From Siphonodentalium dalli (Eukaryota > Mollusca > Scaphopoda > Gadilida > Siphonodentaliidae): a stretch of 64,000 nt of DNA. The DNA lies in the NCBI GenBank assembly GCA_032622095.1, contig CP136064.1, positions 189,953,794 through 190,017,793 on the forward strand, written 5' to 3'. The position numbers and the translations under genes were made by a program. Numbering within the stretch: position 1 is the stretch's first letter; every line of letters begins with the position of its first letter. Positions 5,536 through 62,137 of the stretch are shown piece after piece. The notes under the pieces were generated by a model. That model had not been told where the DNA came from. It searched no databases and saw only the letters and a program-made list of their open reading frames with translations.

Positions 5536-6405
5536 ACCGTTCCCAACGTTCCCAACGTCCATTGATAATATGCATAACTATATCGACCTCAAGAATACAA
5601 CAGGGCAAACAGTGCTCCAAATACTGTCTTCGTTTCACGCATGAAACAAACTACTGCAGCTTCTTTACACGTGCTCATGCAGTTGCTGCATTCTTCGTTA
5701 ACACAATTTTGTTTGAATATTGATGTAGGCGCGATAACTCAAAGCTCAAGAGAAAACTGAAGGCTGCCTATTTGGTCGGCAATAATATTCCACGTAACAC
5801 CTTACACCGCTATATATAGTCAAAGAATAATATCTTTATGAGTTTCGATCTGTTTGTTATACTAGGATTAAGTATCTAGTATTGTACGCAAGATCATCAT
5901 CAGAGGCGAGCGTTTCATGTTAAAATAAATGTTAATTTAAATATGGTGACCAACTCTTGTGGATGGTGCGAGTGTAGTAGACATGCATATTAGTGTCTAT
6001 ATATCACTATAATCTTAGTGTGCGTTATTTGGTAAAACTTTACTGCATCATTGTGAGTGCATTGTATCCAACCCTAGATTTGTAATAAACTAGTTTCAGT
6101 GGAATAGTTTCGAATTAATTCGATTTTGTCTAGGATGGTGTTGGTTATATAGTGGTGGTTATAGCATACGAGTTGATATAATTAAAAACTAATTAAACCT
6201 GGCCCACGAGTGACATACAATTGTTCATTGCAATATGAATTCCGCCTTCTCCTAGATCGATTATTTCTGTCATTTTATGATAGTCTTGGAATGGAGTGCT
6301 TCTTAACAACTCAATAATGAATTAGCATGAAATGAGAGGTGAAGAAGGAACATGTATACACTATTTACAACATAGTCATCGTCATCTTCAATTTGTCCTC
6401 ACCGT
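5536..6405. other. Intergenic, nothing recognised
   Basis: AT-rich, without significant ORFs or recognised repeats. Confidence 0.4.
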
Positions 6406-10077: not shown

Positions 10078-10080
10078 TGA
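10078..10080 (+). other. Single TGA separating LINE ORF1 and ORF2 in one frame
   Basis: ORF1 and the ORF2 endonuclease frame are the same reading frame. The codons from 10081 to the first ORF2 methionine at 10147 contain no stop. The TGA context is GAA-TGA-ATT. It may be a normal ORF1 stop with reinitiation, a readthrough site, or a nonsense mutation. Confidence 0.6.
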
Positions 10081-10146
10081 ATTATCTCATCCAATACAAT
10101 TGACAATTCAACAAAGGCATGTGGAAAATTTGAGCATGAAGGTTGC

Positions 10147-20600: not shown

Positions 20601-22580
20601 TTAATTGTGATCTGAGAATACGTTCGTGATGATCCGAATGAAAGAACAAAGTCTGCGTAGTAATATGGGATTCTTCATATTGAGAATTTCATTTATCGCG
20701 GTAGCATTTATTCGTCTACTATATTTTGGTTGTAAAAAGCGTTTTCTTACATCCGCAAAGAACTCACATTCCAATAAATAATGAAATTCATCAGCAATGT
20801 ATTTGTGACACTTTGGGCATATTCTGTCAGCGATATCAATATTATTCCATCGGCCCGTCTCTATAGGTAGCTGGTGGTTACATGTACGGAATCTGCATAA
20901 TGTTAACCGGTTTCTGGTATCAAGAATGCTCAAGTAATCTTCAAAATTGATATCTTGTTTGAACATTTTGTATATAATTCCCCTACTGCCCGAGGCTTCT
21001 ATATCATTTTTCCATTTATTACGGAATCTACAAATAAGGTTGCACTCAATGTATGTGAGTAATCGCTCAGTACAGGGAATTTTACCTATATCCATTAAGT
21101 GGATCTGACCACATTCTGTTAAAGTTTGCTTAACTTTGTTTATCCACGTGAAATTAGAGGATGAGACATTACTGAGTTTTAGCGCCAACATATATAATAT
21201 TTTACAATATCTATTACAATTCATATTTACTACTTTCAACCAATACTTCACCACGCGCATGTTTATTAATATATCAATTGGCATACGGCCGCTCTCTCCA
21301 TACAACATATAATTGCATGTGGATGGTTTTAGCCGTAAAATAAACTTACAAAATTTTCTATGTATATTCTCAATTATATCATTATTTCCTGTACCCCAAA
21401 TTTCAGATCCATAAGCAAGTATGGGTACAACTTGTGCATCAAATAAATCAAATTGGTCCTTTACCGAAAGGCAGTGTGCTCTTGATTTGGTGATTATAGC
21501 GTACATTGCTCTAGTGGCTTTATCTACAAGCACCTTCTTTGCCTCCGTATATGAACCAGATTTAGTATGTATTATTCCCAGGTAATTAAATTTTTTAACA
21601 ACTTCAATTTCCCTCCCATTATAGAAAATTTTTCTCTTTTTTGGAAGGCTACGCTTTGATATCAACATTATTTTAGTTTTATCGACATTAACTGTTAATT
21701 TCCACATTTCACAGTACTTATAGAATGAATCCAAAGCAGTTTGCAATTTTGCAGGTGTTTCTGCCATTAGTACAGTATCATCTGCATACAAAATTACAAA
21801 AAGTTTCATATAGATGTTTTCAATATCATTCGACAATTTTGGCAGACCAATAACTCCTGTATTTGTCAGATAAGATTCCAAGTCGTTTACGTACAGTGCA
21901 AAGAGTATTGGTGAAAGATTTGCACCTTGTCGGACACCAGATAAAAATGGAAAGTAATTGGAGTGCTCATTTCCTAGTTGAACTTTGGACTTAATGTTCG
22001 AGTACATATTGCAAATGACTTTAAATATTTTTCCATTAACACCGTTAGATAGAAGTTTGTGCCATAGTCCCTGTCTCCATACTTTATCAAATGCTTTTTC
22101 AAAATCAATGAATGCACAATATAAGCTTCTGTTGAGTGACCTAGTAATTTCTGTCAGCATGTGAAGAACAAAGATATTATCAACTGTGGAATATCCTTTT
22201 CTGAAACCGGATTGATTTTCTTTCATTACTTCATGTTCTTCTAGATATTTGTTGATCCTATTTGATAATATTTTGGTAAATAATTTCCCAAAACAACTGA
22301 GTAAAGTAATTGGTCTATAGTTTTCAGGGTCGCTTGAATCTCCTTTATTTTTATATATGGGGATAATGGTTCCAATTCCCCATGAATCAGGTATACACCC
22401 AGAATCCAAGACTAGATTAAAAAGTTTACAGTATATGTCTTTAAGTGTATCAGCCGAGGCTTTTATAAATTCATTTAATATTCCGTCATCTCCAGGTGAT
22501 TTATTATTACTGAGACTAGCGATCGTCATTTTTATTTCCTCGTCTGTAATAGGTTTGTTAAGTGTGTCATTCCCATGCGT
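20601..22580 (-). mobile_element. 5'-truncated CR1/Jockey-type LINE with intact RT frame
   Basis: A 642-residue frame (22529 to 20601) begins in the RT fingers and runs without stops to the end. Motifs are NKSPGDDGILNEF near the start, YRPITLLSC, FIDFEKAFD (about residue 140), RQGANLSP, YADD (residues 248-251, at 21777-21788) and NYLGI. The C-terminal zinc motif C-x2-C...H-x4-C lies near residues 570-590, preceded by QLPIETGRW. In-frame residues (DTLNKPITDEEIK) continue upstream to about 22580, where the sequence passes into the ~155-bp repeat, marking the truncation. It is the same clade as the plus-strand LINE but a separate subfamily by eye. The first methionine is internal. Lacking the endonuclease, it is not autonomous. 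Confidence 0.93.
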
Positions 22581-23030
22581 AGATGTGTACCTTTAGTCTG
22601 ATCATCATAAAATTTGTCATGGCTATTGAAATTGACATGTAGATGGGAACGAGTCATTTTGGGGATATTCGGCATTAAAACATGGCTGCCAGCGGCCATT
22701 TTGGATTCTACTCTTTGCATGACTAAAGATATCAAATGTTTTTGAAATGTTGGAAAACATAGCCGCCAGCAACCATCTTAGATTTTACTTTTATATACAT
22801 GTATATATATATCTCTTCATGTTGATAAACTAGTATTAGACATTCAACTTTCCACATTCCTAATAACTCCATCGACAGTAACACATTAAATTATTCCCTT
22901 TCCAAATTGAGCTACAGTGTCATTGACACTTTCATTATGCATTGCATTGTTAGCATACTGCCTTTATTGGTGTTTATGCAAATAAATCGTACCGTATCGT
23001 ATCTTTTCCATTTACCGATCATATATCCAC
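22581..23030. repeat. Remnant of the GCCATCTTGG repeat family and its 3' flank
   Basis: Contains CTGATCATCATAAAATTTGT, AGATGGGAACGAGTCATTTT and GCCAGCGGCCATTTTGGAT, with a second part near 22754-22785. The following TTGAGCTACAGTGTCATTGA also recurs near 32478, so the 18.4, 22.6 and 31.9 kb loci belong to one family. Confidence 0.7.
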
Positions 23031-33490: not shown

Positions 33491-34169
33491 TCATCTCACG
33501 AATAGCATGGCCAGCGCGATTGACAACAAATTGACAGCAGACAGTGCAACAACACTACTGGCTGTGTTCATAACACTTGAATCGAAAACTCCAAGAACCC
33601 TGGAAGGGGACCCGGAACCTTGAAAAAATTTAACTGTGCCAACAAAGATTGTTGCTCCTCGAGGAGGGAGCTGGTCGAGCCCGGCGACATTCTCCAGACC
33701 AGGAATGTTGTTCTTGCCGGTGTATCTGTGAACCGGAAACATAGATGTCTGTCCATATTCAGTTGACGGGGTGTCCGTGCCAAACATATCCAGGTTGCGC
33801 TCTGTGTGCAACCACTTAACAGCTTCAACACCAAATCCAGGAAAGTGGTAAGAACGACTATCATTCAGGTTATCCGTGTTGAAGACCAGTGACTTGTTGT
33901 CGTACCGTGACTCCCAGCCCGAATTCATCAGAACAATTGCGTTGTCAGGTATGCGTCCGTGCTTTTCCTCCCATTGTTGCAGATGTTCTACTTCTACCTG
34001 GAAGTCGTGATTGTTTTTGGCGTGCTCTTTGACGTCTATGATAACACCGGGACCGATTAGTTTCTTCACAGGCACCTCGTGTTGTCTTTGTGCTCCCTTC
34101 CATGAATGGGACGGTGCGTCCATGTGCGTTCCCGAGTGATCAGCTCCATTTAACGTATTCCATTCGGAC
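33491..34169 (-). CDS. Cyclase / kynurenine-formamidase-like hydrolase, exon 2 (terminal)
   Basis: The exon starts after acceptor TGTCGCTTCAG and supplies residues 59-283. The metal-binding signature H-S-G-T-H-M-D-A-P-S-H is complete (H69, H73, D75, H79 in the spliced protein), as in the PF04199 cyclase family of Mn/Zn-dependent amide and isatin-type hydrolases. Further family landmarks are PGVIIDV, IVLMNSGWESRY, YHFPGFG, GTDTPSTEYG, IPGLENVA, LPPRGATIFV and a GSGSPSRV segment. The last ~25 residues are hydrophobic (SSVVALSAVNLLSIALAMLF), suggesting a GPI-anchor signal or membrane tail, so the enzyme probably faces the outside of the cell. An ATG at 34232-34234 also opens this frame, but it lies in intron sequence and is not the start. 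Substrate is unknown. Confidence 0.9.
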
Positions 34170-43769: not shown

Positions 43770-44053
43770 TCTATTATATATTTTGGGAAATCTGTGTGTG
43801 TGAGGGTGTGTGTGTGGGGTGTGAGGGTGTGTGTGTGTGTGTGTGTGTGTGTTCGCGATTGACTCGAAAACGGCCGAGCAGATTTAGATGACACTTGGTA
43901 TGTGGGGATACTTTCGACCGGTGAGTGGGCCTATTAATTTGCCCGTGCGACGTGACATTGACTTTGAAATCGGGTCATTTCAAGGTCGAACGCCCGAGTA
44001 TCACGGGATTTCGATGAAAATTAGTGTCTGTGGATACTTTCGTATGGGGAGTG
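43770..44053 (+). mobile_element. Helitron, left part (split by the giant palindrome)
   Basis: Starts TCTATTATATATTTTGGG after an A, then a TG microsatellite (43795-43852) and TTCGCGATTGACTCGAAAAC. It is colinear with the uninterrupted Helitron at 61449-62137 up to GGGGAGTG, where the palindrome begins. It resumes at 57962. Confidence 0.85.
44048..44053 (+). repeat. 6-bp target-site duplication, left copy
   Basis: GGAGTG, repeated at 57962-57967. The uninterrupted site in the sister Helitron reads GGGGAGTGTCGTAAGCCC at 61743-61760. Confidence 0.93.
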
Positions 44054-44107
44054 AGTAGTATTAAGTAGAGGGAATATTGATATATATATAACTGAGCCTT
44101 AGGGTGT

Positions 44108-44310
44108 GGTCGTCATTGAGAATCCCCACCCCCACGGGATTTCATAAATACTACTTATCGAATGTTAAACGATACAATACCGACTAATTTATATAGGTGT
44201 AGTCGTCGTCTGATAATCCCCACCCCCACGGGATTTCGTAAATAGTATTTAACGAATGTAAACGTTACAATAACGACTAATTTATATAAGTGTATCAAAA
44301 ATGAGCTGTT
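44108..44310 (+). repeat. Subterminal ~85-bp tandem pair in the palindrome
   Basis: Two units share AATCCCCACCCCCACGGGAT, TTTCATAAATA or TTTCGTAAATA, and GACTAATTTATATA. The mirror pair lies at 57705-57907. Possible transposase or terminal-protein binding region. Confidence 0.75.
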
Positions 44311-44313
44311 TTA

Positions 44314-44560
44314 CTAGGCAGATGATATAGTCAGACTAACTAGTAACTATTTGAAGGCATAGATAAGCTACAATACGCGCTTCTAGGCAGATGTTATAGT
44401 CAGACTAACTAGTAACTATTTTAAGGCATAGATAAGCTACAATACGAGCTATTTTATGTTAGGTAATGATGTATATCTAATAGGCAGATGGTATAGTAAA
44501 GCAAACTATTTCTAGGCAGATGATATAGTCAGACTAACTAGTAAATATTTGAAGGATTAG
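44314..44560 (+). repeat. Subterminal iterated TAGGCAGATG repeats in the palindrome
   Basis: Four units start at 44314, 44383, 44481 and 44513 with TAGGCAGATG followed by TATAGTCAGACTAACTAGTA in three of them. Mirrored at 57455-57701. Confidence 0.8.
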
Positions 44561-44957
44561 TACGCACGATTGAATACATGTATTGATATATAGGTTAGTT
44601 ATGATAGATTAGTAAAATAATAGATATGAATTATCCGCTAGTGAATAACCTCGTGCATGTAAAAAACCACAAGGCTAAAACACATGGAATATTTGTTAGT
44701 TTCGGAACTTTGTCTTCTTTATTGTAGATTTGTAGGTAACACTATTCGATCTCATAAAACTCGATATTACAGAGTCTCGTAGAAAACGAAATGTGGAACC
44801 CTTCACACTTTAGTTCATTTAATGAATATAAATGGTTGAATAAATCTTAGTATACAAACAGATATAAAAAAAAAACATAATCAAATCAATCTTTTTTAAG
44901 AAATGGACAGTCTGGTCTCCCCGTCGAAATATCTTCTGGCAAAAAAATGTATCAATA

Positions 44958-45330
44958 TTTAAAGTCAGACTAACTATTTCTAGGTTGGTGTCTAAATACC
45001 TCTTCTAGGCTATACTCAAACAAACAATTTCTAGGTTATTCAAACATTTCCAAAAATATACTGAGTAAATCTACAAATATTAATTGGAATATAAAGAACA
45101 GAGTTAGATCCCCTGTGAATTGTAACAGTATTAAAATTAATCATTATTTAAAGTCAAACTATTTATTTATAAGTTGGTCATAAAATTACTACTTCTAGGC
45201 TATGGGTTATACTCAGGCAAACTATTTTTAGGTTAATCAAAAATATCAGAGTTGTAAACTAAATCTACAAATATTAATTGGAATATAAAGAACAGAGTTA
45301 GCTCCCCTGTGCATTTGAATAATCTGTTTT
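44958..45330 (+). repeat. ~187-bp direct duplication inside the left arm
   Basis: Units from 44958 and 45147 share TTTAAAGTCARACTA, TTCTAGGCTAT and AATATTAATTGGAATATAAA with the following AGAACAGAGTTAG. Mirrored near 56685-57057. Confidence 0.75.
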
Positions 45331-46146
45331 ATTAAGTTCAATATAGATGTTAAACGATTGATATATGTTAATGAATGATACAGTCATTTATTCGTTAGCG
45401 AATAAACCTATGCATGTAAAACCACAGGTCTAAACACATTGAACTTTTTTAGGAAAGTTCTTCTGTAGATTAGTAGGCAACACATTTCAAAAACACCATT
45501 TCATAGTGATAGAAATCGAAATGTATAACCATTATCGGTTCCTTTAATGATAATGAATGACGCGAGTATTTTCGGTTTATATGAAGACAACGTATTTCAG
45601 TTCCAACACAAATTCAATATTTCAAAAATATAAAAAAATATCTCCCTTTTAATGAAATATTAAATGTAAAATCACGATAAAGCAATTAAAACACAATTTA
45701 ATTTACTTTTTCGTCAACAAAATTGAAGTTATATGTTATAATGCTTCAAAATCAATCAAAATATGAAAATCAAATATCTCAATTGAAAGCCAAATTTAAA
45801 AAAAAACAATTTCAATGTTAACGGAAACAATTTAACAACAAAAAAATCTTTATCTGTTTTGCTAGCAAGTATCAAAAGTCCTTTTTCATTCCCACAATAA
45901 TCGTAAAACACAATAAATGTTTTGTCTTTAATAAAAAAAAATATAAAAATATCATAATCATAGTAAAAAAAATTCAAGCACAAACTGTATATGTAAAAAA
46001 AAATATGAAAATTAAATAAAACTTTAATCCATTTATTTGCAAAACAAATTTTTGAAACATTGTTGACTGTTAACGCAAACAACTGATATTCCAAATCTTT
46101 TTAAACATCAAAAGTCGCACAACCAACGTTAAATAAATGTTTTGTT
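45331..46146. other. AT-rich part of the left arm with 112-codon chance frame
   Basis: A minus-strand frame at 45756-46094 (mirror copy on plus at 55921-56259) is Phe/Tyr/Ile/Lys-rich and looks like translated AT-rich DNA. Part of 45365-45560 is a diverged copy of 44620-44830 (both hold ATGTAAAACCAC-like and TCGAAATGT-like phrases). Confidence 0.5.
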
Positions 46147-46575
46147 TTAACATAACAAGATTTACTTGCCTACTAAAGAACAGATCCATCGAAGTACAAT
46201 TCTCTCTCAATTTTTACCTATGCGAATGTATCTGTTTATATAAGGAAAAATCATTCTATCTTTAGTCCCAAGCAAATGATGTCATTCGAGGAATCTTTCT
46301 TTAAGTCGAATAATCTACCAACATATATCACAAAACATGATGAGGTCTTCGTCGAGAATTCATGTCCGACTCTGTTTAACATAACAAGACTTACTTACTC
46401 ATCAAAGAACAGATAATCCATCGAAGTATAATACTGTCTCAATTTTACCTATCCGAATGTATCTGTTTATATAAAAAAACATTCATTCTATCTTTACTCT
46501 CAACAAAATGATGTCATACGACCCAAGTCGAATAATCTAATATCATTCGTCGAGAATTCATGTCGAGCTCTAGTT
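46147..46575 (+). repeat. ~229-bp direct duplication inside the left arm
   Basis: Units from 46147 and 46376 share TTAACATAACAAGA, GAATGTATCTGTTTATATAA, TGATGTCAT and GTCGAGAATTCATGTC. Mirrored at about 55440-55868. Confidence 0.78.
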
Positions 46576-47121
46576 ATATACAGTAACACATTATTTTACT
46601 CAATCTATCTATAGTCACAAAAAGTGAAGTCGAGCTATCTTGTTAAATGTCCTCGTATGCCTATCATAATGTACCCTCCCATTTTATCCCACGACATGAA
46701 TAATATAATTCATGTCGACATATATCTGTACAAGGCGACTAATTTATTCAACTAGGCTACCTAGCTTGGATCATATTTCAAAGAACGCATCCGTTAACGA
46801 CCCGTCCTTACAAAACGAATAATTTATACTACACCTGTCAAATTTGCATATTTAAGGTATGTTACGGTAAACATTCCAATGTATTCTATATAAGCCAGCT
46901 AAAATAGGAAATCAAAGCATGGATTCAATAGTCAGATAAGTTTATTATATTATGATTTCAGATAACTTTTAATTAATTATTATCTTGTTCAACATATATT
47001 CTATGTAATTTAAAACAATAAATTATATAAAGTTTCTATATTAATCGGAGCGAAACATATTGAGGAAGTTTAAAGCAGTTGTCTTAAAGTGACACTAAGA
47101 TTTATTTTCTTATTTGCGCAC
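46576..47121. other. AT-rich part of the left arm, nothing recognised
   Basis: No gene or clear repeat. The position 46876/55139 difference between arms lies here. Confidence 0.4.
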
Positions 47122-47757
47122 AGTATACTTTGTTTAAACCAGATGTCTTAAAATGGCACTAAGATTTATTTTATTATTTTTTATATCTCACACTATTTAT
47201 AAACAAGATGTATTAAAGGGGCACTAAGATTTCATTTTATAATTTCAATACCAAAAGTGTTTGAACATCACAGCCAAAAATTTAACCTCAGAATTGTTAA
47301 TAAATAAGTCTTCTTCGCATCTTAATTCTTAAAAGGGCGCTAATAATTTAACTTAAATATGGTTGAAAATTTATCGTTAAAGAGCGTTTATTATCTGCTT
47401 GTATGCAACTCTTTCAATCCCTCGTAATATTCGGATACAGTATACTTTGTTCATCCCATATGTCTTAGAATGGCACTAAGATTTATTTTATTATTTTATC
47501 CATCTATTTATAAACAAGATGTCTTAAAAGGGCACTAAGATTTCATTTTATAATTTCAATACCAAAAGTGTTTCAATATCACAGCAAAACAAAAATTGTA
47601 ATAATTTTACCTCAGAATTGTTAATAAATAGGTCTTCTTCGCATCATAATTCTTAAAAGGGCGCTAATAATTTAACTTAAATATGGTTGCAAATTTATCG
47701 TTAAAGAGCGTGTATTATCTGTTTGTATGCAACTCTTAATTATCAAAAACGGATACT
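47122..47757 (+). repeat. ~318-bp direct duplication inside the left arm
   Basis: Units 47122-47438 and 47439-47757 share AGTATACTTTGTT, GGCACTAAGATTTATTTTAT, TTTCAATACCAAAAGTGTTT and CGTTAAAGAGCG. Mirrored at 54258-54893. Confidence 0.82.
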
Positions 47758-48850
47758 GTTACACTATAATACACAAATTTTTAGATAGTATATTACAGTA
47801 TCCAAATTAACATTGTTACAATTCAGATTCTACGGAAAGTTATCTTTAAACATGCAAATAAAAACAATAATCATAGTTTTACAATTGTTTTTTTATGTAA
47901 AATTTTATTTGTCTACACGTTGTGGCTAAGCATATCATAACAGTATATTTACATTTATCTAGCAAATGCGCTCTAATTTCTACAAATTAACATTCCAATT
48001 CATAAATTGTTTTTTTTTGAAAAAAAAAATACTGTAACAGTTTTGTTTACATACCAACTCGTATAGTTTAATAAATAAAGATAACACTTACCTGATTATG
48101 GCAAATAATTCTCCCTTAATCATAATGGCAACACGATTTGGAAAAACAAATGCTGATGAATCCGTACGCAATTTAGCATCAGATGTAAACATGCTCGGAC
48201 AGAAACAATTCCCGGTCGTTCGTTTTTAAACTTACAATTGATGCAGGGTGAAGTGCCAAGCGTTAAGTTTCAACAAGCAGTGAATGGCCATTATATATCT
48301 GATTAATTTACCTTTGTATATAGCATAACGCCCGTGTTGGCATCTGCACGCACGCTTAAAACTCATTAGTCATTGAAATTTGAAAATTTAGAATAATTAT
48401 TTATCGCGCATTCATCGTACAGATTTATACGATGAAAGCAAATATAAACTACGTATGTGCACACGACTAATATATACTTTCAATGCTATGCCTATAAATA
48501 GTATGCAATTATCTCGCAGAATCAATCAAACAATAATATTAAGCTAATTCTGTTAGTTACACCATTGCATCTGAAATTGCTCGATGTCGTTAGACTATAG
48601 GTTAATGTGTGTTTTATATGCATGTTCCCGTTCATTATCTGCACATTTTTAAATCGTCACGGAAATCTACCTACTAACATATTTGAACGCACATTATAAT
48701 TTTGGATAGTTAAATCATACATCTTATCACTGGAAAAATATGAATATATGCTCTAAATCTGTTGGCAGGGCTATTTCAATATACAACATCATATGTATTC
48801 AATGTTTCTAATATATAAATTATACCCCAAATTATCATACAAAAAATATG
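47758..48850. other. AT-rich part of the left arm, nothing recognised
   Basis: No ORF or internal repeat identified. Mirrored at 53165-54257. Confidence 0.4.
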
Positions 48851-49965
48851 TTTTCAAGATGGCATCCAATATGGCTATTCAGAAATGTGAGCTTCAAAAT
48901 ATATCCTGATAAAATGTACACATTTACTGTGATCATATATCGTACACACTGGATGTATTAACGTTTATAGCGTAATACCTATGCTATCTCCATTACAAAA
49001 GATGGCTGCCGAAATGGCCATCGTTTACTTCAAGATACAGGGCTTAAAAATGTATTGCATTTTTACAAAGGCTCATATGCATCATTTAGGTTTGTAGTTT
49101 GTATAGTATATGCTAAATTATCATACAATTTGTCATCACAAAAAAACAATATATATTTTCAAGATGGCGTCCAATATGGCTATTCAGAAATGTCAGCTTC
49201 AAAATATATATTGATAAAATGTACACATTTGCTGTGATCATATATCGTACACACTGGATGTATTAACGTTTATAGCGTAATACCTATGCTATCTCCATTA
49301 CAAAAGATGGCTGCCGAAATGGCCATCGTTTACTTCAAGATACAGGGCTTAAAAATGTATTGCATTTTTTACAAAGGCTCATATGCATCATTTAGGTTTG
49401 TAGTTTGTATAGTATATGCTAAATTATCATACAATTTGTCATCACAAAAAAAAACAATATATATTTTCAAGATGGCGTCCAATATGGCTATTCAGAAATG
49501 TCAGCTTCAAAATATATCTTGATAAAATGTACACATTTGCTGTGATCATATATCGTACAACTGGATGTATTAGCGTTTATAGCGTAATACCTATGCTATC
49601 TCCATTACAAAAGATGGCTGTCGAAATGGCCATCGTTTACTTCAAGATACAGGGCTTAAAAATGTATTGTATTTTTACAAAGGCTCATATGCATCATTTA
49701 GGTTTGTAGTTTGTATAGTATATGCCAAATTATCATACAATTTGTCATCACAAAAAAAACAATATATATTTTCAAGATGGCGTCCAATATGGCTATTCAG
49801 AAATGTCAGCTTCAAAATATATCTTGATAAAATGTACACATTTGCTGTGATCATATATCGTACAACTGGATGTATTAGCGTTTATAGCGTAATACCTATG
49901 CTATCTCCATTACAAAAGATGGCTTCCAAAATGGCCACCTTTACTCTAAAATACAGAGCTTAAAA
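48851..49965 (+). repeat. ~305-bp tandem repeat, four units, in the left arm
   Basis: Units start at 48851, 49156, 49464 and 49769 (TTTTCAAGATGGCGTCCAAT). Each also has ACAAAAGATGGCTGCCGAAA and GGCTCATATGCATCATTTAG. A diverged unit lies at 50563-50760. Mirrored at 52050-53164. The 60-98-codon frames here are by-products of the repeat. Confidence 0.88.
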
Positions 49966-51000
49966 TTACATGCATAATTTAGAAAGTTGATTTTGATTAG
50001 TTATACTACTTATTTCTTCAAAGAGTTAATATTTCCTTATTCTTATCACAGTTTTAAAAACAATCAACAAAAATCTTCATTGTGTATCATATAATGAGTT
50101 CTTGGTAGGCTATCTCATTGTACAACATATACGTATTCATATTTGTTTGTAATTTCCAATGGAGTATTTCGTAAATAAAGTTGTCAAATGCTATAATATA
50201 ATATAAACTCTCAATATCAAAGTATTAAACAAACGAAAAAATAGTCACAGAACCGTCCCATGGGGTAGAATCCCTCTAATACATATCTCATACACAATAT
50301 TACTTTGTTTTAAACCGAGTTGTGTGGAACATCGTCATTTTAATATCATTTTAATCAACCGTTCTAGAACAAATTACTTACACAATCTTTTCTTAAAAGC
50401 TGTTAAAAAAAAATTGTCTACCTAATTCACAATTATTTTTTTGCTAGGTTCGTAGTATTATCATATGGAGCGTAGGTTCGAACACGAAATTAGTAAGAAT
50501 GCTTTTTTTTGGTAGTGGGAATGTGTCAGGGGTAAATTCTGCTATAATTCACTTAATGCTATGTTTTCAAGATGGCGTCCAATATGGCAACTGAGAACTG
50601 TGAGCTTCAAAATATATCTGATAAATTGTATGCCTTAGTTAATATGATCACATAATTATGCGCTTGGCTGTCTTCGCGTTGATAACGTATTAGCAACGCT
50701 GACGCCATTATAAAATGGCAAACATTTACTTCAAAATATACAGCTTCAGAGAAATGTTCGGTATTTTACAAAATAAGACCGAGTGATATTTTGTCTTTCT
50801 TCTCGAAATGTATGAACAAAACAAGAGATGATATACATTACAAACAACTGAAATGTAGTCAGTTGACGACCACTATACACAAAAATAAATTTGATTACTG
50901 CCAACACAGTGTCAGAATTGAAAAATAAATAGTAAATGTGTATCATAAACACTATAATATCGCATTGAATATTCATTTTATTTATTTATATTATGCCGAC
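49966..51000. other. Inner part of the left arm
   Basis: AT-rich. Contains a diverged AAGATGGCGTCC unit and, at 50746-50976, a 76-codon frame mirrored at 51039-51269 without known domain. Four of the six observed arm differences (50154, 50411, 50483, 50810) cluster here near the centre. Confidence 0.5.
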
Positions 51001-51014
51001 CCGTTTTACATAAG
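51001..51014 (+). other. 14-bp asymmetric centre of the giant palindrome
   Basis: CCGTTTTACATAAG between ...ATGCCGAC and GTCGGCAT.... The axis at 51007.5 is also the exact midpoint of the element ends. Confidence 0.93.
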
Positions 51015-54000
51015 GTCGGCATAATATAAATAAATAAAATGAATATTCAATGCGATATTATAGTGTTTATGATACACATTTACTATTTATTTTTCAATTC
51101 TGACACTGTGTTGGCAGTAATCAAATTTATTTTTGTGTATAGTGGTCGTCAACTGACTACATTTCAGTTGTTTGTAATGTATATCATCTCTTGTTTTGTT
51201 CATATATTTCGAGAAGAAAGACAAAATATCACTCGGTCTTATTTTGTAAAATACCGAACATTTCTCTGAAGCTGTATATTTTGAAGTAAATGTTTGCCAT
51301 TTTATAATGGCGTCAGCGTTGCTAATACGTTATCAACGCGAAGACAGCCAAGCGCATAATTATGTGATCATATTAACTAAGGCATACAATTTATCAGATA
51401 TATTTTGAAGCTCACAGTTCTCAGTTGCCATATTGGACGCCATCTTGAAAACATAGCATTAAGTGAATTATAGCAGAATTTACCCCTGACACATTCCCAC
51501 TACCAAAAAAAAGCATTCTTACTAATTTCGTTTTCGAACCTACGCTCCATATGATAATACTACGAACCTAGCAAAAAAATAATTGTGAATTAGGTAGACA
51601 ATTGTTTTTTAACAGCTTTTAAGAAAAGATTGTGTAAGTAATTTGTTCTAGAACGGTTGATTAAAATGATATTAAAATGACGATGTTCCACACAACTCGG
51701 TTTAAAACAAAGTAATATTGTGTATGAGATATGTATTAGAGGGATTCTACCCCATGGGACGGTTCTGTGACTATTTTTTCGTTTGTTTAATACTTTGATA
51801 TTGAGAGTTTATATTATATTATAGCATTTGACAACTTTATTTACGAAATACTCCATTGGATATTACAAACAAATATGAATACGTATATGTTGTACAATGA
51901 GATAGCCTACCAAGAACTCATTATATGATACACAATGAAGATTTTTGTTGATTGTTTTTAAAACTGTGATAAGAATAAGGAAATATTAACTCTTTGAAGA
52001 AATAAGTAGTATAACTAATCAAAATCAACTTTCTAAATTATGCATGTAATTTTAAGCTCTGTATTTTAGAGTAAAGGTGGCCATTTTGGAAGCCATCTTT
52101 TGTAATGGAGATAGCATAGGTATTACGCTATAAACGCTAATACATCCAGTTGTACGATATATGATCACAGCAAATGTGTACATTTTATCAAGATATATTT
52201 TGAAGCTGACATTTCTGAATAGCCATATTGGACGCCATCTTGAAAATATATATTGTTTTTTTTGTGATGACAAATTGTATGATAATTTGGCATATACTAT
52301 ACAAACTACAAACCTAAATGATGCATATGAGCCTTTGTAAAAATGCAATACATTTTTAAGCCCTGTATCTTGAAGTAAACGATGGCCATTTCGACAGCCA
52401 TCTTTTGTAATGGAGATAGCATAGGTATTACGCTATAAACGCTAATACATCCAGTTGTACGATATATGATCACAGCAAATGTGTACATTTTATCAAGATA
52501 TATTTTGAAGCTGACATTTCTGAATAGCCATATTGGACGCCATCTTGAAAATATATATTGTTTTTTTTTGTGATGACAAATTGTATGATAATTTAGCATA
52601 TACTATACAAACTACAAACCTAAATGATGCATATGAGCCTTTGTAAAAAATGCAATACATTTTTAAGCCCTGTATCTTGAAGTAAACGATGGCCATTTCG
52701 GCAGCCATCTTTTGTAATGGAGATAGCATAGGTATTACGCTATAAACGTTAATACATCCAGTGTGTACGATATATGATCACAGCAAATGTGTACATTTTA
52801 TCAATATATATTTTGAAGCTGACATTTCTGAATAGCCATATTGGACGCCATCTTGAAAATATATATTGTTTTTTTGTGATGACAAATTGTATGATAATTT
52901 AGCATATACTATACAAACTACAAACCTAAATGATGCATATGAGCCTTTGTAAAAATGCAATACATTTTTAAGCCCTGTATCTTGAAGTAAACGATGGCCA
53001 TTTCGGCAGCCATCTTTTGTAATGGAGATAGCATAGGTATTACGCTATAAACGTTAATACATCCAGTGTGTACGATATATGATCACAGTAAATGTGTACA
53101 TTTTATCAGGATATATTTTGAAGCTCACATTTCTGAATAGCCATATTGGATGCCATCTTGAAAACATATTTTTTGTATGATAATTTGGGGTATAATTTAT
53201 ATATTAGAAACATTGAATACATATGATGTTGTATATTGAAATAGCCCTGCCAACAGATTTAGAGCATATATTCATATTTTTCCAGTGATAAGATGTATGA
53301 TTTAACTATCCAAAATTATAATGTGCGTTCAAATATGTTAGTAGGTAGATTTCCGTGACGATTTAAAAATGTGCAGATAATGAACGGGAACATGCATATA
53401 AAACACACATTAACCTATAGTCTAACGACATCGAGCAATTTCAGATGCAATGGTGTAACTAACAGAATTAGCTTAATATTATTGTTTGATTGATTCTGCG
53501 AGATAATTGCATACTATTTATAGGCATAGCATTGAAAGTATATATTAGTCGTGTGCACATACGTAGTTTATATTTGCTTTCATCGTATAAATCTGTACGA
53601 TGAATGCGCGATAAATAATTATTCTAAATTTTCAAATTTCAATGACTAATGAGTTTTAAGCGTGCGTGCAGATGCCAACACGGGCGTTATGCTATATACA
53701 AAGGTAAATTAATCAGATATATAATGGCCATTCACTGCTTGTTGAAACTTAACGCTTGGCACTTCACCCTGCATCAATTGTAAGTTTAAAAACGAACGAC
53801 CGGGAATTGTTTCTGTCCGAGCATGTTTACATCTGATGCTAAATTGCGTACGGATTCATCAGCATTTGTTTTTCCAAATCGTGTTGCCATTATGATTAAG
53901 GGAGAATTATTTGCCATAATCAGGTAAGTGTTATCTTTATTTATTAAACTATACGAGTTGGTATGTAAACAAAACTGTTACAGTATTTTTTTTTTCAAAA

Positions 54001-57000
54001 AAAAACAATTTATGAATTGGAATGTTAATTTGTAGAAATTAGAGCGCATTTGCTAGATAAATGTAAATATACTGTTATGATATGCTTAGCCACAACGTGT
54101 AGACAAATAAAATTTTACATAAAAAAACAATTGTAAAACTATGATTATTGTTTTTATTTGCATGTTTAAAGATAACTTTCCGTAGAATCTGAATTGTAAC
54201 AATGTTAATTTGGATACTGTAATATACTATCTAAAAATTTGTGTATTATAGTGTAACAGTATCCGTTTTTGATAATTAAGAGTTGCATACAAACAGATAA
54301 TACACGCTCTTTAACGATAAATTTGCAACCATATTTAAGTTAAATTATTAGCGCCCTTTTAAGAATTATGATGCGAAGAAGACCTATTTATTAACAATTC
54401 TGAGGTAAAATTATTACAATTTTTGTTTTGCTGTGATATTGAAACACTTTTGGTATTGAAATTATAAAATGAAATCTTAGTGCCCTTTTAAGACATCTTG
54501 TTTATAAATAGATGGATAAAATAATAAAATAAATCTTAGTGCCATTCTAAGACATATGGGATGAACAAAGTATACTGTATCCGAATATTACGAGGGATTG
54601 AAAGAGTTGCATACAAGCAGATAATAAACGCTCTTTAACGATAAATTTTCAACCATATTTAAGTTAAATTATTAGCGCCCTTTTAAGAATTAAGATGCGA
54701 AGAAGACTTATTTATTAACAATTCTGAGGTTAAATTTTTGGCTGTGATGTTCAAACACTTTTGGTATTGAAATTATAAAATGAAATCTTAGTGCCCCTTT
54801 AATACATCTTGTTTATAAATAGTGTGAGATATAAAAAATAATAAAATAAATCTTAGTGCCATTTTAAGACATCTGGTTTAAACAAAGTATACTGTGCGCA
54901 AATAAGAAAATAAATCTTAGTGTCACTTTAAGACAACTGCTTTAAACTTCCTCAATATGTTTCGCTCCGATTAATATAGAAACTTTATATAATTTATTGT
55001 TTTAAATTACATAGAATATATGTTGAACAAGATAATAATTAATTAAAAGTTATCTGAAATCATAATATAATAAACTTATCTGACTATTGAATCCATGCTT
55101 TGATTTCCTATTTTAGCTGGCTTATATAGAATACATTGAAATGTTTACCGTAACATACCTTAAATATGCAAATTTGACAGGTGTAGTATAAATTATTCGT
55201 TTTGTAAGGACGGGTCGTTAACGGATGCGTTCTTTGAAATATGATCCAAGCTAGGTAGCCTAGTTGAATAAATTAGTCGCCTTGTACAGATATATGTCGA
55301 CATGAATTATATTATTCATGTCGTGGGATAAAATGGGAGGGTACATTATGATAGGCATACGAGGACATTTAACAAGATAGCTCGACTTCACTTTTTGTGA
55401 CTATAGATAGATTGAGTAAAATAATGTGTTACTGTATATAACTAGAGCTCGACATGAATTCTCGACGAATGATATTAGATTATTCGACTTGGGTCGTATG
55501 ACATCATTTTGTTGAGAGTAAAGATAGAATGAATGTTTTTTTATATAAACAGATACATTCGGATAGGTAAAATTGAGACAGTATTATACTTCGATGGATT
55601 ATCTGTTCTTTGATGAGTAAGTAAGTCTTGTTATGTTAAACAGAGTCGGACATGAATTCTCGACGAAGACCTCATCATGTTTTGTGATATATGTTGGTAG
55701 ATTATTCGACTTAAAGAAAGATTCCTCGAATGACATCATTTGCTTGGGACTAAAGATAGAATGATTTTTCCTTATATAAACAGATACATTCGCATAGGTA
55801 AAAATTGAGAGAGAATTGTACTTCGATGGATCTGTTCTTTAGTAGGCAAGTAAATCTTGTTATGTTAAAACAAAACATTTATTTAACGTTGGTTGTGCGA
55901 CTTTTGATGTTTAAAAAGATTTGGAATATCAGTTGTTTGCGTTAACAGTCAACAATGTTTCAAAAATTTGTTTTGCAAATAAATGGATTAAAGTTTTATT
56001 TAATTTTCATATTTTTTTTTACATATACAGTTTGTGCTTGAATTTTTTTTACTATGATTATGATATTTTTATATTTTTTTTTATTAAAGACAAAACATTT
56101 ATTGTGTTTTACGATTATTGTGGGAATGAAAAAGGACTTTTGATACTTGCTAGCAAAACAGATAAAGATTTTTTTGTTGTTAAATTGTTTCCGTTAACAT
56201 TGAAATTGTTTTTTTTTAAATTTGGCTTTCAATTGAGATATTTGATTTTCATATTTTGATTGATTTTGAAGCATTATAACATATAACTTCAATTTTGTTG
56301 ACGAAAAAGTAAATTAAATTGTGTTTTAATTGCTTTATCGTGATTTTACATTTAATATTTCATTAAAAGGGAGATATTTTTTTATATTTTTGAAATATTG
56401 AATTTGTGTTGGAACTGAAATACGTTGTCTTCATATAAACCGAAAATACTCGCGTCATTCATTATCATTAAAGGAACCGATAATGGTTATACATTTCGAT
56501 TTCTATCACTATGAAATGGTGTTTTTGAAATGTGTTGCCTACTAATCTACAGAAGAACTTTCCTAAAAAAGTTCAATGTGTTTAGACCTGTGGTTTTACA
56601 TGCATAGGTTTATTCGCTAACGAATAAATGACTGTATCATTCATTAACATATATCAATCGTTTAACATCTATATTGAACTTAATAAAACAGATTATTCAA
56701 ATGCACAGGGGAGCTAACTCTGTTCTTTATATTCCAATTAATATTTGTAGATTTAGTTTACAACTCTGATATTTTTGATTAACCTAAAAATAGTTTGCCT
56801 GAGTATAACCCATAGCCTAGAAGTAGTAATTTTATGACCAACTTATAAATAAATAGTTTGACTTTAAATAATGATTAATTTTAATACTGTTACAATTCAC
56901 AGGGGATCTAACTCTGTTCTTTATATTCCAATTAATATTTGTAGATTTACTCAGTATATTTTTGGAAATGTTTGAATAACCTAGAAATTGTTTGTTTGAG

Positions 57001-57961
57001 TATAGCCTAGAAGAGGTATTTAGACACCAACCTAGAAATAGTTAGTCTGACTTTAAATATTGATACATTTTTTTGCCAGAAGATATTTCGACGGGGAGAC
57101 CAGACTGTCCATTTCTTAAAAAAGATTGATTTGATTATGTTTTTTTTTTATATCTGTTTGTATACTAAGATTTATTCAACCATTTATATTCATTAAATGA
57201 ACTAAAGTGTGAAGGGTTCCACATTTCGTTTTCTACGAGACTCTGTAATATCGAGTTTTATGAGATCGAATAGTGTTACCTACAAATCTACAATAAAGAA
57301 GACAAAGTTCCGAAACTAACAAATATTCCATGTGTTTTAGCCTTGTGGTTTTTTACATGCACGAGGTTATTCACTAGCGGATAATTCATATCTATTATTT
57401 TACTAATCTATCATAACTAACCTATATATCAATACATGTATTCAATCGTGCGTACTAATCCTTCAAATATTTACTAGTTAGTCTGACTATATCATCTGCC
57501 TAGAAATAGTTTGCTTTACTATACCATCTGCCTATTAGATATACATCATTACCTAACATAAAATAGCTCGTATTGTAGCTTATCTATGCCTTAAAATAGT
57601 TACTAGTTAGTCTGACTATAACATCTGCCTAGAAGCGCGTATTGTAGCTTATCTATGCCTTCAAATAGTTACTAGTTAGTCTGACTATATCATCTGCCTA
57701 GTAAAACAGCTCATTTTTGATACACTTATATAAATTAGTCGTTATTGTAACGTTTACATTCGTTAAATACTATTTACGAAATCCCGTGGGGGTGGGGATT
57801 ATCAGACGACGACTACACCTATATAAATTAGTCGGTATTGTATCGTTTAACATTCGATAAGTAGTATTTATGAAATCCCGTGGGGGTGGGGATTCTCAAT
57901 GACGACCACACCCTAAGGCTCAGTTATATATATATCAATATTCCCTCTACTTAATACTACT
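51015..57961 (-). repeat. Right arm of the giant palindrome
   Basis: Reverse complement of 44054-51000 throughout. All internal repeats described for the left arm recur here in mirror order. Position x in one arm pairs with 102015 minus x in the other. Confidence 0.93.
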
Positions 57962-58537
57962 GGAGTGTCATAAGCCTATTAGTTTGCCCGTGCGACGTGA
58001 CCGTGACCTTGAAATCGGGTCAATTCAAGGTCAAATCGCGAATTTTTATGGGATTTCGACGAAATTTGATACGTGGGGTTACTTTTGTCCACTGAGTGTT
58101 TTCGACGGGTCAAATCGTGACCCCGACCTGACCTTGACCTTCAAAATGATGAATTCGATGTCAAATCGGGTAAAACCGGATGGATTTCGACGGACACTTT
58201 TGTCGGTTACTTTTGTCCGGGCAGTGTTTTATACGGGTAAAATCGTGACCCAACCTGACCTTGACCTTAAAAATGGACAATTCAAGGTCAAATCGCGCAA
58301 TTCGCCGAAAAGCAGAGGGGAAACAGCCCGGACCAATTCAAGGTCAAATCGGGTAAAACCGGATGGATTTCGACGGGTACTTTTGTCGGGTACTTTTGTC
58401 CGGGCTGTGTTTTGGACGGGTCAAATCGTGACCCCACCTGACCTTGACCTTCAAAATGGGCAATTCAAGGTCAAATCGCGCAATTAGCCGAAAAGCAGAG
58501 GGGAAACAACCCGGACGAAGTCGGGTCCACCTGCTAG
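57962..58537 (+). mobile_element. Helitron, right part after the giant palindrome
   Basis: Starts with the second GGAGTG (57962-57967), then TCATAAGCCTATTAGTTTGC as in the intact sister at 61750. Ends with hairpin CCCGGAC-GAA-GTCGGG, TCCACCTG and CTAG at 58534-58537. A partial duplication of the end (GCCCGGACCAATTCAAGG at 58327) shows one internal rearrangement. Confidence 0.85.
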
Positions 58538-59106
58538 TCTCATATATATTTTGAAGACCTCTGTCTGTCTGTATGTCCTTTATAGAATCGAAAACGGGTT
58601 GACCGATCGAGACCAAACTTCCTATCCACTCCACTCTCAGTCACAAAAAACGGAACTGCGGTGGTTAATCAAGTGATAATTTAATGAGCGTTTGTTTTTG
58701 ACGCATCGCTATAAAGAGCGTTTGTTTACCATTCAACGTTATTAGCATCTGCAGAGAGATATACGGGAACAATACTGCAGACGAGATCTCGGAAACGGGT
58801 GGAGCTATCGACTTGAAGTTTGGTATGTGAATGTATCTTGCCCCGGATACGAATTTTATCGGGTCGCCGAGCCCGTGCGACGCCAGCTTCGCGCATGCGT
58901 AGACCAGATCTCGGAAACTGGTGGAGCTGTCGACTTGAAATTTGGTATGTGAATGTATCTTGCCCCGGATACGAATTTTATCGTGTCGCCGAGCCCGCGC
59001 GACGTCAGCTTCGCGCATGCGCAGACCAGATCTCGGAAACGGGTGGAGCTATCGACTTGAAATTTGGTTTTTGAATAGCCCGGACAACGTCGGGCTCACC
59101 GGCTAG
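58538..59106 (+). mobile_element. Helitron in tandem array, type B end
   Basis: Begins TCTCATATATATTTTGAAG directly at the CTAG of the previous Helitron. Ends with hairpin AGCCCGGAC-AAC-GTCGGGCT, CACCGG and CTAG. Includes two to three ~122-bp units with GATCTCGGAAACGGGTGGAG and ATCTTGCCCCGGATACGAAT. Confidence 0.85.
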
Positions 59107-59195
59107 TATTATATATAATGTAAATATTATATGAGTTATACCATTTAAGAACAAATATTCTTGAATTTATTAGCATTTTTTGTATTTATTATTAA

Positions 59196-59822
59196 TCTCA
59201 TATATATTTTGAAGACCTCTGTTTGTTTGTCTGTCTGTCTGTATGTCTGTCATTTATCCAAATCTACGATTCTCGACCGATCGGGACGAAACTTGGTACG
59301 TGTGTGTACTTTGACCAGGCGGTCGACGTTGTCGTATTGGCGAGCCGTTCGGTGCCCGCTTCGCGCATGCGCAGACGAGATCTCGGAAACGGGTGGAGTT
59401 GTCGACTTGAAATTTGCTATGTGAATGTATCTTGCCCCGGATACGAATTTTATCGGGTCGCCGAGCCCGTGCGATGCCAGCTTCGCGCATGCGCAGACGA
59501 TATCTCGGAAACGGGTGGAGCTATCGACTTGAAATTTGGTATGTAAATGTATCTTGCCCCGGATACGAATTTTATCGGGTCGCCGAGCTAGTGCGACGCC
59601 AGCTTCGCGCATGCGCAGATGAGATCTCGGAAACGGGTGGAGCTATCGACTTGAAATTTGGTATGTGAATGTATCTTGCCCCGGATACGAATTTTATCGG
59701 GTCGCCGAGCCCGTGCGACGCCAGCTTCGCGCATGCGCAGACGAGATCTCGGAAACGGGTGGAGCTATCGACTTGAAATTTGGTTTTTGAATAGCCCGGA
59801 CAACGTCGGGCTCATCGGCTAG
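59196..59822 (+). mobile_element. Helitron in tandem array, type B end
   Basis: Starts TCTCATATATATTTTGAAG after an A and ends GTCGGGCTCATCGGCTAG. Four ~122-bp units lie inside, each with CGCGCATGCGCAGACGA. The preceding 59107-59195 is AT-rich filler. Confidence 0.85.
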
Positions 59823-60522
59823 TCTCATATATATTTTGAAGACCTCTGTCTGTTTGTTTGTCTGTATGTTTGTATGTTTGTCTGTATGTTTGTCATTTAT
59901 ACAAATCTACGATTCTCGACCGATCGGGACCAAACTTGGTACGTGTGTGTAGTTTGACCAGGCGGTAGACGTTGTCGTATTGGCGAGCCCGTGCGGCGCC
60001 CGCTTCGCGCATGCGCAGACGATATCTCGGAAACGGGTGGAGCTATCGACTTGAAATTTGGTATGTGAATGTATCTTGCCCCGGATACGAATTGTATCGG
60101 GTCGCCGAGCCCGTGCGACGCCAGCTTCTCATATGCGCAGACGAGATCTCGGAAACGGGTGGAGCTATCGACTTGAAATTTGGTATGTGAATGTATCTTG
60201 CCCCGGATACGAATTTTATCGGGTCGCCGAACCCGTGCGACGCCAGCTTCGCGCATGCGCAGACGAGATCTCGAAAACAGGTGGAGCTATCGACTTTAAA
60301 TTTGGTATGTGAATGTATCTTGCCCCGGATACGAATTTTATCGGGTCGCCGAGCCCGTGCGACGCCAGCTTCGCGCATGCGCAGACCAGATCTCGAAAAC
60401 GGGTAGAGCTATCGACTTGAAATTTGGTTTTTGAATAGCCCGGACAACGTCGGGCTGGGTAGAGCTATCGACTTGAAATTTGTTTTTTGAATAGCCCGGA
60501 CAACGTCGGGCTCATCGGCTAG
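59823..60522 (+). mobile_element. Helitron in tandem array, type B end duplicated
   Basis: Starts at the CTAG junction. The 3' hairpin is present twice (about 60438-60458 and 60493-60513), only the second followed by CATCGGCTAG. Four internal ~122-bp units. Confidence 0.8.
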
Positions 60523-61448
60523 TCTCATATATTTTTTGAAGACCTCTGTTTGTCTGTCCGTATGTCCTTTATAGAATCGAAAACGGGTTGACCGATCGAG
60601 ACCAAACTTCCTAGCCAAAGGTAAAATCCCACGGACACCGTCGGCGTCGCGGTTTGGAGAAGCTCAGACCACCCGTTCTCCACTCTCAGTCACAAAACAC
60701 GGCACTGCGGTGGTTAATCAAGTGATAATGTAATGGGCGTTTGTTTTTGACGCATCGCTATAAAGAGCGTTTGTTTACCATTCAACGTTATTAGCATCTG
60801 CAGAGAGATATACTGGAGCAATACTTTTGAGTGGTTTCCTATGCGGGGAGATTTATTGGATGCCATAGTACTCTTACAACATCATTGTTATAGTATGTAT
60901 GGCACTTAGGTCAGGGCTTAGGGTGTAGTTAGTGTGGATATAGGCATAATTCTTCTCAGAAATCCCGGTTACAAACCAACACTAACAATTTCGTCTTTTG
61001 CATCAGATACCAACACCTCGACCGATCGGGACGAAGCTTGGTACGTGTGTGTAGTTTGACCATGTGGTCGTCGTCGTCGTATTGGCTAGCCCGTGCGACG
61101 CCCGTGCAGCGCATTCGCAGACGAGATCTCTGAAACGGGTGAAGCTATCGACTTGAAATTTGGTATGTGAATGTATCTTGCCCCGGATACGAATTTTATC
61201 GGGTCCCCGAGCCCGTGCGACGCCAGCTTCGCACATGCGCAGACCAGATCTCGGAAACGGGTGGAGCTATCGACTTGAAATTTGGTATATGTGAATGTAT
61301 CTTGCCCCGGATACGAATTTTATCGGGTCGCCGAGCCCGTGCGACGCCAACTTCGCGCATGCGAAGACCAGATCTCGGAAACGGGTGGAGCTATCGACTT
61401 GAAATTTGTTTTTTGAATAGCCCGGACAACGTCGGGCTCATCGGCTAG
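60523..61448 (+). mobile_element. Helitron in tandem array, composite
   Basis: Starts TCTCATATATTTTTTGAAG at the junction and ends GTCGGGCTCATCGGCTAG. The middle (60840-61000) is unrelated single-copy-looking DNA, followed by a second internal start-like CGACCGATCGGGACGAA, so it may be two Helitrons fused or captured flanking DNA. Confidence 0.7.
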
Positions 61449-62137
61449 TCTATAATATATTTTGGAAGAGCTGTGTGTGTATGTGTGTGTGTGTGTTTGT
61501 GTGAGAGAGAGAGGGTGTGTGTGTGAGGGTGTGTGTGTTTATCTGTGTGTTCGCGATGGACTCGAAAACGGCCGAGCCGATTTCGATGAAACTTGGTATG
61601 TGGGAGTACTTTCGGCCGGGGAGTGGCATGGGCCTGTCAATTTGCCCATGCGACGTGACCTTGAAATCGGGTCATTTCAAGGTCAAACGCCCGAGTATCA
61701 CGGGATTTCGATGAAAATTAGTGTAGGTGGATACTTTCGTATGGGGAGTGTCGTAAGCCCATTCGTTTGCCCGTGCGACGTGACCTTGACCTTGAAATCG
61801 GGTCATTTCAAGGTCAAATCGCGAATTCTTATGGGATTTCGACGAAATTTGATACGTGGGGTTACTTTTGTCCACTGAGTGTTTTGGACGGGTCGAGTCG
61901 TGACCCCGACCTGACCTTGAACTTCAAAATTATCAATTCGAGGTCAAATCGGGTAAAACCGGATGGATTTCGACGGGTAGTTTTGTCGGGTACTTTTGTC
62001 CGGGCTGTGTTTTGGACGGGTCAAATCGTGACCCCACCTGACCTTGACCTTCAAAATGGACAATTCAAGGTCAAATCGCGCAATTCGCCGAAAAGCAGAG
62101 GGGAAACAGCCCGGACGAAGTCGGGTCCACCTGCTAG
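61449..62137 (+). mobile_element. Helitron with the uninterrupted target of the giant palindrome
   Basis: Starts TCTATAATATATTTTGGAAG with a TG/GA microsatellite (61470-61545). Ends GTCGGGTCCACCTGCTAG. At 61743-61760 it reads GGGGAGTGTCGTAAGCCC, the empty version of the site split at 44053/57962. Confidence 0.87.

Follow-up and report, generated by a model that had tools for sequence, protein, structure and literature searches.

Positions 44054-57961 of the window, meaning the whole 64,000-nucleotide stretch of Siphonodentalium dalli DNA analysed here (assembly GCA_032622095.1, contig CP136064.1, positions 189,953,794 to 190,017,793), are occupied by a palindrome of 13,908 bp. Gene-less and palindromic, the element is very probably a satellite of Maverick/Polinton transposons, and it belongs to a multi-copy family. 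That Mavericks supply the machinery for its movement in trans is an inference with good support, because the palindrome shares its ends and the length of its target-site duplications with gene-bearing Mavericks, and lacks coding capacity. Ends and duplications point to insertion by a Maverick-type integrase; as the element has no genes, the proteins would have to come from elsewhere.

The palindrome consists of two inverted arms of 6,948 bp, the left at 44054-51001 (forward strand), the right at 51014-57961 (reverse strand), which differ by 6 mismatches and no gaps, and of a central loop of 12 bp (CGTTTTACATAA, 51002-51013), enclosed by a GCCGACC/GGTCGGC stem. Chance could not plausibly produce a self-match so long. 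The near-perfect palindrome of the original prediction was thus recovered, with arms one base longer than the 6,947 bp given there. The locus was correct, but the limits 44048-57967 took in both copies of the duplication, the element proper being 44054-57961. The inverted repeat had been said to make up the whole element; it does so, in the manner of foldback-type elements, except for the 12 bp of the loop, which had been missed. The termini, AGTAGTATTAAG at the start and CTTAATACTACT at the finish, carry the expected AGTAGT and ACTACT ends exactly, and comparison of the flanks confirmed one copy of GGAGTG on each side (44048-44053 and 57962-57967), exactly duplicated. When the element and one GGAGTG are removed in silico by a script, the remaining sequence is colinear with a neighbouring sister repeat, which is uninterrupted and carries a single GGAGTG. 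The empty site resides in this repeat as predicted, at 61745-61750 rather than at 61743. The left arm has a G+C content of 29.6%, against 38.6% in the remainder of the window. Tandem repeats with units of ~324 bp (1.9 copies, 47120-47737) and 305 bp (3.7 copies, 48846-49965) lie on the forward strand of the left arm, and the mirror copy of the latter lies in the right arm at 52050-53169 on the reverse strand. The longest ATG-started frame across the whole element encodes 97 aa. The PolB, integrase, ATPase and capsid genes of complete Mavericks are missing from the window element, which was accordingly filed as a non-autonomous derivative. In sequence, the window copy is self-complementary and has the same terminal repeat at both ends, as snapback genomes do. 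An Rfam scan of the window at gathering thresholds gave zero matches.

The assembly searched spans 2.2 Gb in 9 contigs; E and L labels denote elements and stretches in it, C denotes a contig, and copy counts are lower bounds, only the best 40 matches of each search having been scored. Other genomic copies, whose absence would have spoken against a mobile element, do exist. The end (first 247 bp) used as a probe retrieved at least 40 matches; the best 40 of 158 candidates were mostly plus/minus pairs 12-19 kb apart. Two arm-internal probes (best 40 of 226 and best 40 of 174 candidates) led to 32 loci. Arms lie head-to-head directly among the matches at 25 of these, and an inverted mate was seen in the local DNA at 5 more (C1:247737254, C8:48823631, C4:52140502, C3:217669196 and C9:13550283); palindromes, some with a damaged centre or arm, thus account for 30 of the 32 loci. 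The other two are a non-palindromic hybrid (C4:214435331), and an arm with a proper end (C3:9170155; L112, L116, L117), which breaks off at arm position 6030 and continues as other DNA. A 31st palindrome, E11 (C5:150495314), was found through its ends. At least 30 palindromic copies exist therefore besides the window copy, 29 from the arm probes plus E11. The 12 palindromes with both ends read measure 9,818-17,326 bp, 9 of them falling within 12.7-14.6 kb. Full palindromes with 6-bp duplications had been among the things to look for, and the duplications are exact in all 12 palindromes with flanks read, which are the window copy, E10, E11, E12, E15, C9:191392045, C3:83780721, C1:247734038, C5:243148413, C3:80166303, C5:170507781 and C3:239266429. 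Over all elements read, exact 6-bp duplications were found in 25 of 25 cases (12 palindromes, 12 gene-bearing elements and one hybrid).

Seventeen centres have been read (window, E10, L029-L043). The loop at the GCCGACC/GGTCGGC stem is found in 8 of them, 12 bp long and in either orientation in seven, shorter in L029; L036 and L037 have one stem mismatch each. In six centres (L038-L043) the spacer, located at GAATATTC, measures 0 or 1 bp, and three (L032, L033, L034) are asymmetric or decayed. The spacer therefore does not exceed 12 bp in 14 of the 17. At six further loci, centres are near-symmetric in L065 and L066, one arm is short at the centre in L063, L064 and L067, and L068 is symmetric at the centre but has a large deletion in one of its arms. 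No symmetric centre is present in E11. A tree of 640-bp centre arms had zero starred branches and was not used.

Gene-bearing Mavericks with the same ends, for which the original prediction had proposed a search, occur in the same genome. Among the first eight end pairs compared, E2, E3, E6, E7, E8 and E9 are complete elements of ~14.4 kb, E10 and E11 palindromes. The terminal inverted repeats (TIRs) of the six complete elements span 781-793 aligned columns. The outer ~780 bp of the window arms (44054-44833, forward strand, and 57182-57961, reverse strand) share 97-98% identity with the TIRs of E2, E3, E7, E8 and E9 (97.6% with E7, 98.1% with E2), and are less similar to those of E6. Matches to PolB and integrase are present in E2, E3 and E7; the palindrome thus has its TIR in common with elements carrying both genes, the property by which Maverick/Polinton affiliation was judged. 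Seven frames of E7 were scanned. One matches the rve integrase (E 4.9e-17), and one encodes a DNA_pol_B_2 protein of 1,308 aa (E 1.1e-52); one gave a sub-threshold SidE_DUB match, four had no match, and neither a Mutator nor a P transposase was found among the seven. One of the four matchless frames encodes a 435-aa protein with 111 relatives, several named F54H12.2-like. A sequence search of the PDB with this protein gave no match; its structural model (mean pLDDT, the predicted local distance difference test score, 77.8) matches capsid proteins of virophages, mavirus and iridoviruses, and the protein is predicted to be a double-jelly-roll capsid protein. All 12 gene-bearing elements read have exact 6-bp duplications, 5 of them (E13, E14, E16, E19 and C8:143227277) having been classed as gene-bearing by a single probe of 401 bp, placed 2 kb inward of the left end. 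Shared ends, 6-bp duplications and a longest frame of 97 aa together support the earlier view of the window element as a gene-less Maverick-like derivative.

Further observations concern the Mavericks themselves. TIRs within one copy differ by 0.13-0.25% in E2, E3 and E7-E9, and by 1.3-1.8% in E6 and E4. Among the best 40 of 90 candidates, matches to the integrase probe are 99-100% identical; among the best 40 of 62, matches to the PolB probe are 92-100% identical, and the two halves of Mavericks seem to have had different histories. Palindromes of Maverick gene halves, judged by eye as two inverted matches within 20 kb, were sought among the same matches, and none was found. The right end of E3 occurs twice, at C2:120663148-120663393 and C2:120666030-120666275, 2.9 kb apart and each time followed by AACCTATAATTATGC, as if the end had been duplicated in tandem together with its flank. 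The flank of the interrupted arm at C3:9170155 (L116:511-708) and the left flank of E7 (L018:103-300) have in common a stretch of ~200 bp, 94.9% identical, indicating that the two sit beside or inside the same dispersed repeat.

Arms of the same palindrome are much alike, and change together. Arms differ within a copy at 6 of 6,948 positions in the window element, 1 of 6,893 in E10 and 10 of 5,727 (plus 2 gaps) in E11, and between copies by 1.0-4.8% (E12 by its left arm only). When substitutions in the window copy and E10 are compared, the arms agree and the copies differ at 66 sites, no site splits the arms alike in both copies, and 7 are private. The comparison with E11 gave 206, zero and 12 sites, respectively, the last private to one arm. 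Substitutions found on one arm of the 17 centres, inspected by eye in a table read without its last columns (the ends of fixed-length slices), recur in no other copy. By this pattern, arms are homogenised within copies. Private differences in resident copies show that arms do drift after insertion, and levelling would hence either operate mainly from one insertion to the next or be a slow process in place.

The ends tell a different story from the interior. In blocks of 100 bp, the window arm is 96-100% identical to E2/E3 over arm positions 1-700, and 98-100% identical to E10 over 700-1200; the two window arms are identical to each other throughout 1-1200. A stretch of at least 65 bp within positions 1-700 is found in E2/E3 as well, and is absent from E10, E12, E11, E4 and E6. 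A tree of the outer 560 bp of the TIRs (21 rows, 13 of them different, from 4 palindromes, E12 with one end, and 7 gene-bearing elements) has the palindromes in three places, the window copy with E2/E3, E10 and E12 near E4, and E11 with E6. Its starred branches force 3 label changes, against 1 in a tree of a 453-bp interior stretch. The latter includes 15 rows (13 different), 9 from palindromes, among which the arm at C3:9170155 is counted, and 6 from hybrids; L119 and L063, having no stretch long enough, were dropped, and the midpoint root serves for drawing. Palindromes lie on one side of a 100/100 branch, hybrids on the other, and recurrent formation of palindromes, considered as a possibility, is unsupported for the sampled interior. 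Trees and block identities together suggest that the sampled interior is a single lineage, whose ends have been repeatedly exchanged with Mavericks, both arms alike. A further end type (probe L057) is found in 20 end pairs, 6 belonging to palindromes (by their centres), 9 to gene-bearing and 5 to arm-like elements, the last two classes being set at 2 kb inside the left end. One of the 5 arm-like pairs, C3:253011252, has an integrase match too, and looks like a hybrid. One probe at +2000 (L103, C1:212158013) matched neither the arm nor a Maverick gene.

In hybrids, an arm-like half is joined to the structural half of a Maverick. In the only one read at both ends (C4:214432657-214446229; L118, L114, L113, L115), the arm-like half is 83-98.7% identical to the window arm, closest near its end and most divergent inside, and the structural half is 92-96.5% identical to E7. 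Its ends are AGTAGTGTATAAG, and its 6-bp duplication is TCTGAT. Its gene content comprises a match to the integrase, a 435-aa frame like the capsid protein and an ATPase-like frame; a 237-aa frame scores above the cut-off for Adeno_IVa2 (E 1.3e-6) and below that for AAA_14. PolB was not found in the pieces read. Lacking a polymerase as far as read, hybrids would depend on complete Mavericks, as palindromes do. The 848-bp junction of the hybrid occurs at full or near-full length at at least 14 loci, itself included. At the six other junction loci compared, both the gene side and the near arm side (85-97%) match the hybrid in every case; the far arm side matches in four, the match is limited to 44 bp of the end in one, and there is none in the last. 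The middle of the junction (232-741) is a dispersed repeat, with 4,286 candidates in the search. A dispersed repeat among the matches of this search recurs many times at C4:182898230-183023696, mostly at multiples of ~7.7 kb, over ~125 kb, which has the look of a tandem array with a unit of 7.7 kb. The hybrid class, like the loop, the levelling of arms and the exchange of ends with Mavericks, goes beyond the original prediction.

How palindromes are formed and maintained can be outlined as follows. Integrase and PolB of Mavericks would act on the shared ends, inserting and copying the palindrome in trans; that its replication is protein-primed, too, is suggested by the shared ends only. Since the whole element is self-complementary, the displaced strand could fold over its full length into a hairpin of 6.9 kb, a panhandle spanning the element. 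Pairing of the arms in this form, followed by repair, would keep them identical; in complete Mavericks the same folding would act on the ends only. A single event of fold-back (snap-back) synthesis, with the gene-less half of a Maverick-like element resembling the present hybrids as its template, may have produced the palindrome. To the hairpin and snap-back steps we assign a little better than an even chance, the snap-back origin being a weaker proposition than either movement in trans or levelling through the hairpin. Fold-back synthesis, or a growth of TIRs driven by repair, of the kind proposed for Galileo, may each have given rise to the palindrome. Symmetric, spacer-less centres were at one point taken as proof of snap-back, an argument dropped because a plain deletion between two copies of GAATATTC explains them equally well. 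A bolder and rather doubtful scenario is that of a heritable satellite virus with a linear, fully self-complementary DNA genome, copied by the protein-primed polymerase of Mavericks, levelled through the hairpin at each cycle, packaged in Maverick capsids and brought back by the integrase, with ends exchanged with the active subfamily. The window copy is within ~4% of the length of the helper, although palindromes elsewhere are between 9.8 and 17.3 kb long.

The satellite may alternatively owe its symmetry to chromosomal recombination. According to this view, repair of a break in one TIR copied the other end and continued into the interior, gene conversion in the chromosome keeps the arms alike, and no hairpin is involved. 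The same route has been proposed for the long repeats of Galileo, in the available text of PMC3573991; asymmetric centres are compatible with repeated recombination, and most of the complete Mavericks compared also have near-identical TIRs inside a copy. Yet one-arm differences have been left uncorrected in resident copies (6 mismatches in the window element, 10 mismatches and 2 gaps in E11, and 8 mismatches and 20 gaps in the centre of L066, where self-alignment counts each twice), so that chromosomal conversion is at least not fast, and spacers that do not exceed 12 bp, as seen in 14 of the 17 centres, are unexpected from the simple extension of a tract. On balance this route seems unlikely, though worth keeping in mind. 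A closer contender, held to be only somewhat less probable than its opposite, reverses the direction of descent, and bears on the origin alone, being compatible with the satellite nature of the element. The palindrome would be the older form, and hybrids would result from its recombination with complete Mavericks. The mosaic-like look of the arm-like half of the hybrid fits this notion; palindromes and hybrids are separate groups in the midpoint-rooted interior tree (100/100), a split which does not give the direction, and nothing decisive stands against it. Folded reads, in which a read is joined to its own reverse complement, are a known cause of long palindromes in assemblies, and could in principle account for the window element. 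The flanks of the latter differ, however, and when joined they restore an empty site that has GGAGTG once; 30 other palindromic copies are present, 11 of them with both flanks read and exact 6-bp duplications, and copy-specific differences are found on both arms, private ones on one. The rejection of an assembly error in the original prediction is upheld, the probability of such an artefact being negligible. Hardly any credit can likewise be given to the idea that the palindrome belongs with the foldback elements of a different superfamily (Mutator, P/Galileo or other) and has Maverick-like ends by chance. Foldback elements have long TIRs and for the most part seem to be Mutator elements, with exceptions such as Galileo (PMC4079207 and PMC3573991, available text). 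Still, over its outer ~780 bp the palindrome shares 97-98% identity with the TIRs of E2, E3 and E7, which have PolB and integrase matches, 6-bp duplications flank 12 of 12 palindromes, and (AGT)2//(ACT)2 ends combined with 6-bp duplications are the pattern of vertebrate Mavericks, as described in the available text of PMC8097293.

A number of observations weigh against the favoured picture of a Maverick satellite formed by snap-back and levelled through a hairpin. Palindromes are not of uniform size (9,818 to 17,326 bp, n=12). The centres of L032 and L033 look alike and are asymmetric, and L067 and L068 have a common break at arm position 2787/2788; asymmetric variants thus appear to be copied, which argues against an obligatory, full resynthesis of the second arm at each cycle. 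One gap, confined to a single arm in L032, is present on both arms in L036-L043, an exception to the rule that both arms go together. Rather than being the source of the palindrome, the hybrid may derive from it. The arm interior, finally, has no convincing similarity to genes of complete Mavericks. The PolB query had no match in the arm, and captured Maverick genes, sought by tblastn with frames of at least 80 aa at 8 loci of 4 gene-bearing elements, were discarded as a candidate, the best match having E 0.003 over 10 residues.

The palindrome can be set beside several known systems. With Mavericks/Polintons (polintoviruses) it shares (AGT)2//(ACT)2 ends, exact 6-bp duplications and the ~780-bp terminal repeat of the PolB- and integrase-bearing elements found here; it differs in being gene-less, and in having an inverted repeat that takes up all but 12 bp, in contrast to the ~780-795-bp TIRs of the six complete elements. 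Non-autonomous DNA transposons, such as miniature inverted-repeat transposable elements, are moved in trans via shared ends, as the palindrome plausibly is, but the latter is nearly as long as a complete element (13.9 vs ~14.4 kb), and fully palindromic. Foldback-type elements such as Galileo and Tetris also have long TIRs with internal tandem repeats. In the available text of the sources, the two TIRs of a given Galileo copy are 98-100% identical, and the first known copies consisted of long TIRs only (PMC3573991), and Tetris is non-autonomous, with TIRs of up to 1,735 bp (PMC4079207). These elements belong to other superfamilies (Galileo to P), whereas the palindrome has Maverick ends, arms of 6.9 kb, and a spacer of 0-12 bp in most of the centres read. 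Snapback genomes of adeno-associated virus, as far as described in the available text of PMC8235507, are self-complementary, symmetric or asymmetric, carry the terminal repeat, and replicate with the aid of a helper. They are, however, subgenomic particles of a parvovirus, while the palindrome is inserted, inherited and multi-copy, with Maverick ends and gene-less arms.

Other features of the window can be mentioned briefly. The repeat hosting the palindrome, a putative Helitron, includes several arrays of ~122-bp tandem repeats at 58777-61408. Long frames at 8878-15026 (forward strand) and 20601-22592 (reverse strand) resemble, by eye, retroelement proteins of the LINE (long interspersed nuclear element) type, with endonuclease and reverse transcriptase motifs. 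A gene fragment of the isatin-hydrolase/cyclase family (PF04199 relatives) is found at 33494-34165 on the reverse strand; its best relatives are from the limpets Patella caerulea and P. vulgata, with 48-54% identity, which by itself points most likely to a molluscan host, perhaps akin to limpets.

Palindromes of 13.9 kb with spacers of 0-12 bp are usually considered difficult for chromosomes to maintain. Mavericks have been discussed as connecting transposons with many DNA viruses, and their mode of replication and the formation of particles are debated; no Maverick particle had been observed so far, according to the available text of PMC8097293. A literature search by titles, abstract starts and set phrases, with subscription journals largely uncovered, returned no description of a palindromic or non-autonomous Polinton/Maverick. 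If the reading proposed is correct, the elements would be the first palindromic, gene-less Maverick satellite family known to us. Arms levelled between insertions in a self-complementary derivative would provide a sequence-level record of strand folding in the Maverick life cycle. The coexistence of complete, half-hybrid and palindromic forms in one genome would make the exchange of modules and parasitism directly testable, and dozens of palindromes would offer natural material on the decay of palindromes in an animal genome.

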